Source: Norana najaformis (lineage: Eukaryota; Annelida; Clitellata; Crassiclitellata; Hormogastridae). Taken from it: a DNA stretch of 64,000 nt. Below the pieces are notes generated by a model that searched no databases, was not told the origin of the DNA, and saw only the letters and a program-made list of their open reading frames with translations. Shown piece after piece: positions 338 to 7,279 of the stretch. The translations under genes were made by a program, and so were the position numbers. The DNA lies in contig OZ029921.1 of the NCBI GenBank assembly GCA_964023275.1, positions 7,229,306 through 7,293,305 on the forward strand. Direction: 5' to 3'. The number at the start of each line of letters is the position of its first letter. Positions within the stretch are counted from its first letter, which is position 1.

Positions 338-881
338 TTAGAACAGAATTTCGTCCTCCATCTTCGGGTGTTGTCGTCCCACCCGAGGAATCTTTGCCTG
401 AATGTGTCTTTGACTCCTCGTTTCAGTGCCAAAAATCAGCTGCTTGATTTGATCTTCATTCAGAGGAGGCGCGTAGGGTAAGCTTGATGAGGAGTGTGAT
501 GGAGAAAGGGAGTAAGAGGAAGATGCGTATTGGGAAGCTTGGGACGTGTACGGCGATAAATCGGATGAAGAGAAGCAGGAGTGAGAGAGAGGAGAGGAGT
601 CAGAGGCTGAAGGAGAAGAAGTTGATGATGAATGGGTGAGAGTGAACGAGGGGGAGGAGTAGGAAAAGGGAAAGGTGGGAAACGAGAGGCCGTTATCTTC
701 GCCTGTAGTTCTTCCCACGCGTGGAATCTTGAATAGCTGTCTCCTGCTCTCGTTTTGGACTTGGCTCAGCATTTCCTCTCGTGGCTTCGTCAGCTGGAAA
801 CACTGATGCGGGGATGATTTCCAGGGTTTCTGCGGCAGAGACGATGCCCGGCATCCTAACTTCGCTTCGTTGGACAGGTAC
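338..881 (-). CDS. Putative PRXamide-type neuropeptide precursor, 3' coding exon (5' part not found)
   Basis: The minus-strand frame is open from an acceptor-like AG at 882-883 to a TAA at 338-340. It reads like the C-terminal part of a secreted prepropeptide. Two near-identical amidation cassettes are visible. The first is QLFKIPRVGR at 710-739, preceded by the dibasic site RR. The second is HIQAKIPRVGR at 374-406, preceded by Arg. In each, Gly is the amide donor and Arg the cleavage residue, predicting peptides ending in IPRV-amide. Between them lies a Ser/Tyr/Pro-rich spacer of about 100 residues. Two cysteines (in LGCRAS and HQCFQL) lie upstream. PRV-amide endings are known from insect capa peptides, and the wider PRXamide group includes neuromedin U, pyrokinin and molluscan small cardioactive peptides; membership is inferred. 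The exon starts in phase 2, so at least one upstream exon with the signal peptide is required. I searched 900-2650 by eye and did not find it. The first in-exon ATG is at 772-770 but is unlikely to be the true start. Confidence 0.6.
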
Positions 882-1039
882 CTGAAGATTGCAGTTGATT
901 GACCGGCTGCAGATCAATCGAAATAAACATGTGAGGCCTAGGCAATAGACCTCCAGTTAACCAATCAATCAATCATTGAATCAGCTGAGAGTCACTTTAC
1001 TAAGGGTCAGTCAATCGAATGGTCGATATTTTGTCAATC

Positions 1040-1230
1040 AATGTAATTCTTTTTCCTTCTTTCCTTGCTTCCTTCCTTGCTTGCTTGCTTGCTTACTTCC
1101 TTCCTTCCTTCCTTGCTTCCTTACTTACTTACTTCCTTCCTTCCTCCATCCCTTCCTTCCTTCTGTCCTTCCTTACTCTCTGCCTTCATTCCTTCTTTCC
1201 TTCCTTCTTTCCTTCCTTCCTTTCTTAGCA
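1040..1230. repeat. (CTTC)n / (CTTG)n tetranucleotide microsatellite
   Basis: Runs of TTCCTTCC, TTGCTTGC and TTACTTAC fill this interval. The reading frames across it are low-complexity Leu/Pro/Ser/Phe and are not genes. The rest of 882-2651 shows no recognisable coding sequence. Confidence 0.9.
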
Positions 1231-1939
1231 CATTATAATGGTTAAGTGCGATTAGATTAGACGAGTGAAATCAGTAGGAAACGGAGGATTAGATCAGATT
1301 AGCGATGTATACTTTATGCGGTTGAAAATAGAGCGGTGACCTAGATGGAAGGAAGAAGCGCTTACTAGAACACCAACTGAGCAGAATCATCGTTGAAAGC
1401 AGTAACGGCCACATATTCCACGCTGCGTCCAGATAGGTTACCGATGAACAGATTACCAGTTAATTATCGATGAATTATCGAACAGCAACGGATCGATTAT
1501 CGCTCTTCTACTCCCTGTCTTGATTCGATGGTGCTGGTTCCACCCTCAGAATCTCAGACCTCATCCTCGGAACTACGAGGTTGCTACGCAGAGGCTGTAT
1601 CCGAGCCCTCGACTGTTGACGCTTTATATAGCGCCCGATAAGATACCTTCACTTTCTCGGCCACTTAGAAGGACATGACCGGCGTCTTGTCCTTACTTAG
1701 ATTCGCAGCCATCAATCATCGCTCTGAACAGAGCAGGTGGACACTCGAAATCAATGTCTCCTCAGACCAGACACTCTAGACACTGATCTATTTGTTGATC
1801 CGACACCAAAACAAGACCAGTTTATTATTATTTTTTGCCAGTGCTAGAAATGACACTGTGGGGCTTTAAAAGTTCTGCAGAGAATAGAAAAGTTTAGGAA
1901 CGGCTAGAAGATCCAGCGGAGAAAAGTGCAACAGTGTAA

Positions 1940-2651: not shown

Positions 2652-3250
2652 TCAGCGGCCGGCATGTGGAAGCATCTGGACGAAGAGGGTCGTATGTGTG
2701 ACGACGCTGAGTGCGACGAAGACCCAGAGGAAGATCCGGTCGGCCAGGAGGGCTACCAGTCGCCACTCGGCCTTCGACCTGGCGCGGTCCCGCCGGTCCT
2801 GGCTCGCATCGCTGCCCTCCGTTTCGCTCCGTCGGATGTGTTTCAGCATCAGGTCCTCGCTGTAGTCGATCCTCCGGCCGCGCTGCAAACTGCGCGAACG
2901 ATGAAGCGGCGGCGGCAGGACCTCGGCACTCCCTCTAAGGCCGCTGCAGGGACTGACGCCGGAAGCACCGCCGATTGTCGCTGCTGCCGTTCGGCGTCGA
3001 CCGCCCACGTTCAGCTGGCCGTTGGAGATGGAGGAAATGTCAAAGATCTTTCGTCGGTTCTTCTCTTGGTCCGGAGTCCGCTGTTCCGCCAGGTGTTGGA
3101 GGTGGTAGGACGGAAAGAAACGGGAAGCCAGTGCAAGCGCCCAGGCAGGACAGCGCTCCGACGAGTTCTTCTTGGCGTAGATGTTCGTCACAATGACGGC
3201 CATGACCAACGCTATGCTGACCATCACCATCGTCGAAGCAAAGAACATCC
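2652..3250 (-). CDS. nAChR coding exon 7: M3, cytoplasmic loop, M4 and stop
   Basis: Encodes residues 310-508. M3 is MFFASTMVMVSIALVMAVIV. It is followed by a basic, Ser/Arg-rich intracellular loop of about 145 residues with many RR pairs and then M4 (RIFLWVFVALSVVT). The exon begins after GTGTAG at 3251-3252 and joins the preceding exon within the Gly of ILG-MFF. The whole large loop lies in one exon, unlike many animal nAChR genes. Confidence 0.95.
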
Positions 3251-6200
3251 CTACACATGCAACCACAATCACATACGGCCAATCACTTCACTGCTATGTA
3301 ATGCAATCTAGTCTAGTGACTTCTATAGCGCCGTTATCATAATGCACAAGGTGACAAGGTTACAATTGCGACTCGAGCTCCTTTCTCTTCCCCTCTAAGT
3401 GTTCCGCAGGCGCCTGTAAACTGTACTGATTAACAGTGATATTACTTTTTCGGGTCGGAAATAAGCCTACCTCTGTTGAGTTTATCCTCTAAGAGGCGCT
3501 TTATAAATCTCAAATTATAATTACAATTACAAATTACAAATACAATTACAGTCAGTGGTCGCTTCAGACAGTAAAAAATCGTAAACCGCTCGGTTGAAAT
3601 CCGACTGGTCACGCAACATGACTGGACAATCTGAAGACGCGGTGAACAACGATAAGGGTCAGAGGTCAATTACACTGAAATGCGACGTTTTGTTTACATC
3701 TTCACATCGCGTCATCGAAGTTGACCGCAGAATTAACCTACACTGTTTTAAGGCAGATTATTATCGTCCAGGGAAGCTAATAATGTACGCCTATAGGGTA
3801 TAGTCACGCGTAATTTTCAGTTTTACGAACTAAGGCGTAACTGAAGCACATCAATACCTTAACGGAATACTTACTGAGAACGAATAGAAAAGAAGGGAAA
3901 GAAATGGGATAGAATCTACTATAGAATAGAATGGAATGGAATTAAACAGGCCAGATCAGAACAGGAGAGAAAATACAGAACAGAACATAGCATAACAGAG
4001 CGGAATAGAATAACACAGAACAGAGCAGAAAGGAATAAAATAGCAAAAAGCGCAGACAGAACAGAATAGGATAACAGAGAACAGAACAGAATAGAATAGT
4101 ACAGAACAAAACAGAAAGAACAAATAACAAAACAAATAACAAATAACAAAACAAATAACAAATAACAAAAAGCATAACAGAACGGAGTAGAATTGCGCAG
4201 AACAGAACAGAATAGCACAGAACAGAACAGAATAGCACAGAACAGAACAGAACAGAAAGGAACAGAATAACATGGAGCAGAACAAAAGGAATAAGACAGC
4301 ACAGAATAGAGCAGAAAAGCACAGAAACGAAATAGCAAAAATAAGAATTAAATAGAACAGACGAATGGCTGAGTGGATCTTCGTTGCCTACCGAGGATTG
4401 GAATGGAGTCGGGGGTGGGTGGCATTGTTTCGCCGACCCTCAGCAGGAAGACGACGAGGGCCAGGAGGATCGTGATCTCGAGGTTGACCTTCTCGCCGGA
4501 TTCGACCGGAAGGAAGAAACCGAGGAACGAGATGAGGAAGATGAGGAAGCAGGGAGCGATGAGATTGACGATGTAGAACAGACTGCCACGGCGCATATGT
4601 ATCGTAAAGGTCACGTCTGGGTAGAGTTCAACGCAGCAGGCGTACTTCTTCGTATGTCGCTCGGCTGTTATTCCACCCACCTTCTCAACGGCCCACTCCT
4701 GAATTCCACCCACACAGCATGCAATCATCGTCACCATCATCATCAGCAACACCATCATCATCATCATCGTCATCAACAGCAACAACGTCATAATCATCAA
4801 CAACAACAGCGACATCATCATCATTGTCTGCAGCAAAACAACAACACAAACCACAAAATCCACCACCGCCGCCGCCACCAGCACCAACACCGGGCTACTT
4901 TGACTGGTGCCGCTCCTGAATACATCTGTGAGCTGTGCGTTCCGGTCTCCAACCACCCTGGAAGCCAAACATTGCATCCTGTGATGCTTCTTGCCTTCGA
5001 TTTTGTTTTGACAGCGAATAAGCTGGCTCACGTGACTTACCATTCGTTGGGCGCTATAGAAATCTAGAGTTTACGGTTACGATGATGGGAGATATCGTTC
5101 TTGCCCGCTGTCGCACGTTCTCCGTTGTGCCGTATTTCTGGAAAGATCCTTTCACTGATATTCTCGCCTTTCTGCTTAATGTTGATTCTATAAGATTTTC
5201 TCGAAAGCAAGTCTGTTTTTGTCTGACTGAATGCTGCGACCAGGACGCCGCTGAGGGGCTCTTGAATGGCGCTATGCAAATGTTACAGTTACCAGCACAA
5301 CCACAATCAGTATCACATTTTCAATCACAATTGCAATAACGATCGCCCTTACAATTAAAATCAAAATTAGGCCTACAACATTGGACATTCTGTTACTATA
5401 ATCGTGCTTCCCAATGGCGGATTCAGCTATAGGCCTGGGGGGAGTTCGTCCCGCGCCCCTTTTGGTTACACGCTGGCCCCCCCTCAGGCCAGAACCGTGC
5501 ATGGTGGACTGCCAGAATGTGGCGCCCCTCTGGAAATGCTCTTGCCCCCTCGTAAGCAATCCTGGAGCCGCCACTGGTGCTTCCATTAATCGTAATCGTA
5601 ATCTCGAAATTTCTAAAGCTCTACTTAAAAGCTAAGCGCAGGGCACCAGCTTATTCACGAGCGCTGCGTCAAGTCCGTGGGGTTGTCCAAAGATGCCATG
5701 TCAAGAACCAAGTCCGGTTGTCAGGAGACCAAAGATAGGAGTGAAGAGGAGGCTAGGGTAGGTTGTGTTTGAGCTGGGAGAAATGGGAAGACTGATGAGG
5801 GTGGGATTTCTTGAAAAGGTGACAGTGTCATTCTGTCTCTCTCTCTATAGAAACCTGGTTGGTGGACGTGTAGTAGACGCTGTTTTCGAAGGTACTGTTG
5901 TAGACGACGTCCAGCTGGTCTTCGCTGTGGGTCCACGAGATGAAGACGATGTCGCACTTCTGGCTGTCGAAGGGAAAGTACTTGACGTTCAGGGTGCAGT
6001 AGGTCTTGATGAGCGCCGGGTACAGCCACAGCACGGTTCCATCGGGACTCACGATCGTGTTCGTCACCACGTAGTCGTTGAATTTGTCGCCGGCACTGAA
6101 TGGAACGCAGCATTTGTTGTATCCATCACAGGGCAGCAATGATGACAATGAAAAGCGAAGAAAGGGAAGACAGAGGAATGGAAAGAGGGGAAGGCGGAAG

Positions 6201-7279
6201 GAATGCGTGAGAGAGACAGACAGAGACAGAGAGGGAGAGAGGGAGGGAGATAGAGTGTATGACAGAGAGAGAGAGAGAGAGACAGAGAGAGAAAGAGAGA
6301 CAGAGAGAGAGATGGAGAGAGACAGAGAGAGAGGGGGAGAGAGACAGAGAGAGACAACTAGAGACATTGGCAGAGAAAAACCCAGAGAGAATATGAAAGC
6401 GACAGGCAAAGATAGAGGAAGACAGAGAAAGAGCGAAGCAAAAGCAAAATATGGTGAAGTATTCCTGTAACATGTAGGGTGGTAGGGCCTTCACAGACGC
6501 TCAGGTATAGTTACAGGTTCGGCATTTATAGTAGGGCTGTAGATGTTACTTATGGTAAAGAGCTGAGCCACGTGGACAGTCATTAAAGCCTGATGTTTGT
6601 CAGCAAGCAGGTACGAAGTGTTAGCGACTTTATTTTCTTAGCCTCAGCATAAAAAGCAGATTTTATTTTCTTAGCCTCGACATAAAAAACCAGATGACCA
6701 GTCCTCTAACTCGTCGTCTGCTCTGCCTATTATGCATACGATATACTCACGGGATAGCTGCGTTCGCTAGAGGGCCCTAGTGAAAACGAAATCTTGAATT
6801 TCATTCTGTTTTCAGTGGGTATTTGAAACCTGACTGCTCGAGAGGCCAGGTAACTGACCACAACTGACCGCAGCGCCAGCCAATGCGGCAGTTTTGTTAA
6901 AGAAGGCTTAAGTTAACAATCATAAGACGAACGGCTGTGCAAAGAGGATTTTGCATGGCAACCAGCAACGGAAGCCTTTCATCATGATATGCTTTGACAA
7001 CGAATTGCCATACTTCGGGATTCTGGCTGTTAACAAATGAAAACTCACAAATTCTGTATGACGAGGTCCGGAGTCCAAATCCTATCAGCTGGTATTCGAA
7101 TCGTCTCAACTCCATACTCGGATGCGTTCCATCTCAAATATTCATCCTTCCACTTCTACGAAGATAAATAAATAAACAATTGAACAAATAACAAATAAAT
7201 GACTATTTAATTATTAAAGAGTATTGTATGTCGGCCCCAGATTATATTCTGTGTGAATCTGTACGCCTGACAAATTTTC

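Follow-up and report, generated by a model that had tools for sequence, protein, structure and literature searches.

Near the start of a 64,000-base stretch of the genome of the annelid Norana najaformis (the window; C9:7,229,306-7,293,305, contig OZ029921.1), a minus-strand reading frame carries two copies of the motif KIPRVGR, which raises the question of whether the locus encodes a neuropeptide precursor and, if so, of which family. The explanation that best accounts for the data, with a probability of roughly 0.9, is an annelid gene, one of two sisters, whose product is the precursor of a secreted neuropeptide or peptide hormone. The first-pass annotation had likewise read the locus as encoding a neuropeptide precursor with a pair of IPRV-amide cassettes, and the evidence below supports that view: the product is best read as a PRX-amide preprohormone, whose peptides would act on a G-protein-coupled receptor.

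Translation of the minus strand confirms that KIPRVGR is encoded at 730..710 and at 394..374 in a common frame, as had been reported. This frame, open over 913..338, contains ESRRQLFKIPRVGRTTGEDN and ends in TRSQRHIQAKIPRVGRQHPKMEDEILF followed by a stop codon. Cassette 1 (QLFKIPRV-G-R, 739..710) is directly preceded by Arg-Arg and cassette 2 (HIQAKIPRV-G-R, 406..374) by RSQR, so that the basic site before and the Gly-Arg after each copy are both present as described. The cassettes lie 112 residues apart, close to the earlier estimate of about 110, the two KIPRVGR copies being 336 bases apart, and the Ser-rich spacer noted between them is seen in the translation of 452..705 on the minus strand, where the DNA is CT-rich. 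The frame therefore combines what is expected of a neuropeptide preprohormone, namely a near-identical repeated peptide, basic cleavage sites and an amidation Gly.

The repetition of the motif is unusual for this DNA. A six-frame scan for 7-residue repeats in a shared frame (excluding low-complexity words, and with copies at most 200 residues apart) returned seven in the window, one of which is KIPRVGR; the other six sit in an FCSVL-type DNA repeat at ~4.0-4.3 kb. After Markov randomisation in 500-base blocks, no such repeat appeared in any of 30 runs. Similarly, six frames of the window contain three PR[LIVMFY]G[KR] sites, two of them contributed by the cassettes, where 100 randomised versions averaged 0.29. 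Of the 21 bases in a KIPRVGR core, three differ between the copies (CCA/CCT, CGC/CGG and AGA/CGA), and all three differences are silent, for which the rough chance is ~0.025 if ~29% of changes are silent. Upstream of the two cassettes, the flanking sequences show a weak similarity (matched by 81 of 2000 shuffles), so part of the cassette identity may be plain duplication; the similarity of the downstream flanks is not significant (507 of 2000).

To place the motif in the whole genome, the assembly (608,420,607 bases in 17 contigs of 19-64 Mb) was searched. A search with the precursor piece gave one match at E <= 0.001. Degenerate code for KIPRVGR has three matches in the 608 Mb, two of which are the window cassettes, and a reversed control pattern also has three, so the KIPRVGR count alone is at the chance rate. 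Two such matches 336 bases apart in one frame, however, are unlike chance. The third lies on another contig, at C5:28,797,123, within a 205-residue open frame that also carries NIPRVGK, 204 bases upstream of its KIPRVGR. Because this C5 frame has its own cassette pair, arranged like that of the window, the two frames probably represent sister precursors. An IPRVG[KR] motif arises in only 1 of 20,000 Markov versions of the C5 frame and in 1 of 20,000 residue shuffles, and six frames of the 19.8 kb surrounding the sister contain no PR[LIVMFYG]G[KR] site other than the two C5 cassettes.

These results bear on the possibility that the window frame is a chance opening in low-complexity CT-rich DNA. 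The composition of the spacer would fit such an origin, as would the equal genome counts of the KIPRVGR pattern and its reverse; a Pro/Leu-rich second frame is also open across the spacer (460..765), and the openness of the frame is consequently weak evidence by itself. The silent-only differences, the basic flanks, the randomisations without a single repeat and the two cassettes of the C5 frame nevertheless make a chance origin very improbable.

In the sister frame, the predicted cleavage sites yield QVYNIPRV-GK as cassette 1 (8 residues) and QVFSKIPRV-GR as cassette 2 (9 residues). The predicted lengths thus follow one scheme in both genes: an 8-residue first peptide of the form Q[LV][FY]xIPRV and a 9-residue second peptide of the form xxxxKIPRV. 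PRV-G-[RK] is found in all four cassettes of the two frames, which places them in the PRX-amide superfamily, with amidation itself predicted from the Gly. When the two precursors were compared by BLASTP, the best piece (E 7e-5, for a single comparison) set cassette 1 of the window against cassette 2 of the sister, which differ in rank. Further pieces had E values of 5e-4, 0.001 and 0.008, one of them continuing into spacer sequence (18 of 59 residues identical), and beyond the best piece the precursors have little else in common. The IPRVG core, by comparison, is constant over the four cassettes while its codons vary (Pro CCA/CCT; Arg CGC/CGG/AGA/AGG; Val GTG/GTA/GTT; Gly GGA/GGC). Since the residues are unchanged and the codons, including four for Arg, are not, the purifying selection on the peptides suggested by the first-pass annotation appears supported. 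It had proposed to look for the cassettes in related species; within the host genome, the sister frame keeps both IPRV cassettes. A protein search with the C5 piece found no third gene, its matches being the piece itself and two weak loci (E 0.245 and 1.4) with internal stops and with neither PR[VILM]G[KR] nor IPRV in six frames. Taken together, a two-gene annelid family of IPRV-amide precursors is very likely real.

A complete precursor requires a signal peptide upstream of the cassettes, and the model proposed here supplies it from a separate exon. The coding part of candidate exon 1 (1366..1414, minus strand) starts at an ATG at 1414, in a frame that begins MWPLLLSTMILLSWCSS, and comprises the predicted signal peptide MWPLLLSTMILLSWCS plus one base. 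Between 880 and 3000, this is the sole minus-strand ATG frame to pass the stricter signal filter. It also passes the looser filter, as do 119 window frames (0.93 per kb and strand), so the signal frame by itself is unremarkable and proves little. The candidate intron (907..1365, minus strand; 459 bases, phase 1, GTAAGC...CTGCAG) holds a GGAA/GTAA simple repeat. Its donor, GTAAGC at 1365, leaves one base and scores 1.8 (90th and 95th percentiles of the window, 0.5 and 1.9), and its acceptor, TGATCTGCAG followed by CC at 906, lies just past the stop at which the open cassette frame begins, gives two bases and scores 1.4 (percentiles 0.3 and 2.3). Candidate exon 2 (338..906, minus strand) would encode the remainder of the preprohormone and ends with the stop codon TAA at 340..338. 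The spliced model (1414-1366 joined to 906-338) predicts 205 residues. Exactly one signal-exon model was obtained at the real anchor, and 42 of 3000 random anchors yielded any model, under thresholds chosen after the real scores were known.

Two other acceptors were considered. The exon start at 881 that had been proposed earlier fits less well: the acceptor there is phase 2 and scores 0.2, and it was set aside for 906, whose phase 1 matches the donor at 1365. An acceptor at 829 outscores 906 (2.3), yet its phase is 0, and in that phase the signal frame offers no donor better than -2.2; this acceptor was likewise dropped in favor of the phase-matched site. Excision of the spacer as an intron was rejected: all five GT sites between the cassettes have donor scores of -6.5 or lower, and the Ser-rich spacer is therefore probably translated. 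A TATA-like sequence, GGCGCTATATAAA, lies at 1623..1635 on the minus strand, ~210 bases upstream of the ATG. It has 20 window matches at <=2 mismatches versus 1.04 expected, which identifies it as one copy of a dispersed element, and it was dropped as promoter evidence. Neither AATAAA nor ATTAAA occurs from the stop codon to the window start.

The sister gene agrees with this model in part. Two acceptors score above -3 there, and both are phase 1 like that of the window gene, although weak, at 0.1 and -1.0. Downstream of sister cassette 2 there is a strong donor, with a score of 5.1. Within ~8.7 kb upstream, no phase-matched signal exon passes the filter, and the donor that goes with a signal-like ATG at 28,796,185 scores 2.4 but belongs to phase 2. 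The suggested search for a signal-peptide exon has thus produced one phase-matched candidate, at the window locus (1366..1414), and none within that distance of the sister.

In the proposed pathway, the modelled signal peptide would direct the precursor, 205 residues long, into regulated secretion. There, convertases would cleave it at the RR that precedes cassette 1, at the RSQR that precedes cassette 2 and at the Arg behind each Gly. Conversion of the Gly to a C-terminal amide and of the N-terminal Gln to pyroglutamate would then give the predicted products, pQLFKIPRV-amide and HIQAKIPRV-amide. Their receptor is most likely G-protein-coupled and of the neuromedin U/pyrokinin/ecdysis-triggering-hormone (ETH) group. 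With two defined peptides per gene and two genes, the predicted products can be synthesised and tried on candidate receptors together.

Searches against general databases gave no relatives. The best Pfam match to 338-880 is DUF515 (E 0.58, far below its cut-off), four PDB sequences were found at E up to 10 (best 0.35), and the window contains no Rfam family at the gathering score and no tRNA. A 136-residue piece had 14 pattern stretches in viral contigs and 136 in prokaryote contigs, none of which was confirmed, as expected of an animal gene. Among the open-literature papers listed for a KIPRV- or IPRV-amide peptide, none was a neuropeptide paper by title; the string PRV is absent from the main texts of PMC8557429 and PMC3890597. 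The precursor matched no named precursor among those compared here. Annelid PRX-amides are little charted in the literature covered.

The first-pass annotation had compared the peptides with insect CAPA. The PRV-amide end is indeed shared with arthropod CAPA (periviscerokinin), which ends in PRV- or PRI-amide, but the likeness is weaker than had been suggested. CAPA peptides, in the passage cited, end in FPRV/I-amide (PMC9853942), whereas all four cassettes here have IPRV, and the window precursor contains no WFGPRL peptide.

Pleurin, a trochozoan [FY]PRI-amide precursor, is a second comparison. Its copies end in PRI or PRV (PMC7749107), a single intron is seen in the genes that one study compared, as in the candidate model here, and an oyster paper describes sequences that encode pleurin in two annelids, Capitella and Alvinella, although the occurrence of pleurin in annelids is disputed between the papers as excerpted. 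The pleurin peptides given in these sources, such as VFYTKSDDNDYPRIa (PMC7749107) and IFYTNKEGNDFPRIamide (PMC5996578), have 14-15 residues, an F[YF]T-type start and an [FY]PR[IV]-amide end; the window peptides have neither the FYT-type start nor [FY] before PR, nor that length. An assignment to pleurin is accordingly improbable.

The strongest rival is the annelid small cardioactive peptide (sCAP), because a Platynereis precursor has been assigned to sCAP by motif and the genome holds no [LF]AFPRMG cassette. The window gene would then be the annelid counterpart of the sCAP/pyrokinin peptides (neuromedin U group), equivalent to the Platynereis 'sCAP' precursor and acting on a neuromedin U-type receptor. 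This is a serious, if tentative, possibility. The Platynereis precursor was placed in pyrokinin/sCAP by motif in the passage cited (PMC3890597), and slug sCAP precursors likewise hold two peptides, as described in part of PMC7749107. Two amidated PRX peptides, a spiralian host and a Platynereis member are thus common ground, and the Platynereis precursor may be the same thing as the window precursor. In addition, the sole genome-wide match to [LF]AFPRMG code is not a cassette, being followed by Asp and lacking a cleavage site, and another precursor may therefore fill the sCAP role. Against this assignment, the slug peptides described in that excerpt end in AFPRM-amide (PMC7749107), which has no counterpart here, where the tail is IPRV; the Platynereis member could be compared by description only. 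The main text of a Urechis paper, moreover, contains neither sCAP nor pyrokinin. If the window gene proves to be an annelid sCAP, less is gained, namely a clear description, at the genome level, of the family and its duplication.

The tail itself, judged by sequence, is nearest to that of panarthropod ETH, through the Ile before Pro and a nearby Lys. ETH is usually present in two copies per precursor, and its Pro follows an aliphatic residue and has a Lys in the vicinity, features that QVFSKIPRV of the sister also shows (consensus FFLKASK[NS]VPRIamide in the passage cited, PMC9853942). The window gene could then be an ETH-type precursor outside panarthropods and the ligand of an orphan ETH-type receptor, a reading for which the orphan state of lophotrochozoan ETH-type receptors, as given in the section used of PMC8557429, and the label ETH in an annelid G-protein-coupled receptor figure legend (PMC7854359) also speak. 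The long consensus, however, fails: by eye, only the Lys and an aliphatic-PR-aliphatic pattern (VPRI versus IPRV) are common. ETH peptides are longer, whereas those predicted here have 8-9 residues and no FFLKAS part, their copies are separated by a 112-residue spacing, and the host is an annelid. De Oliveira 2019 reports, in the passage cited, no eth orthologue outside panarthropods, and the phyla listed there with an ETH receptor do not include annelids as far as that passage shows (PMC6660194). The excerpted oyster paper links ETH with pleurin instead. Given the omission of annelids from that receptor list, the ETH reading is considered unlikely, and it is somewhat less likely still that the two IPRV-amide genes constitute an ETH-type ligand system in an animal without arthropod moulting. 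Were the ETH-type reading true, the genes would supply the missing ligand for the spiralian ETH-type receptors, for which the excerpt of PMC8557429 gives no known ligand, and would push the origin of the ligand back to the protostome ancestor.

Several other features lie near the precursor gene on C9. A Cys-loop subunit resembling those of nicotinic acetylcholine receptors has its exons at 2652-6490 on the minus strand (Pfam Neur_chan_LBD and Neur_chan_memb). The last of them ends at 2652, and the candidate signal exon lies ~1.2 kb farther downstream. Scattered minus-strand exons of a NUP210-like nuclear pore glycoprotein extend over window positions 21133-46262, with NUP210_Ig and Ig_NUP210_9th above their cut-offs and Ig_NUP210_3rd slightly below. 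Just downstream of the precursor gene, long TCTG/TGTC simple repeats are present (L002 9169-9810, where L002 is C9 sequence downstream of the window). The next gene downstream (L002 3-3597, minus strand) includes a PDZ exon (PDZ_6, E 6.4e-6), whose 26.3 bits fall just short of the cut-off, 27. It also has an open frame of 842 residues, with repeats of the GYNPEPQPRTQPQY type and no Pfam match at E 0.1.

Several observations concern the host assembly. Eclosion hormone (PF04736) has no match in it, nor any positive among the control genomes, and PF14830 (Haemocyan_bet_s), a molluscan family, has none in the assembly and none in the 14 control genomes, so that its absence does not prove that the host is no mollusc. 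TTAGGG-type arrays are found at 9 of the 24 contig ends examined (of 34), and TTAGG-only arrays at 0 of 24; most arthropods have TTAGG telomere repeats, and an arthropod host was accordingly dropped. PF16915 (Eryth_link_C), an annelid family (erythrocruorin linker), has 29 matches at E <= 0.001 (best 8.1e-32) and none in the 14 control genomes, which, together with the telomere arrays, makes an annelid host very probable. Thirteen of these 29 matches form an erythrocruorin-linker cluster within ~160 kb, at about 36.72-36.88 Mb of C5.
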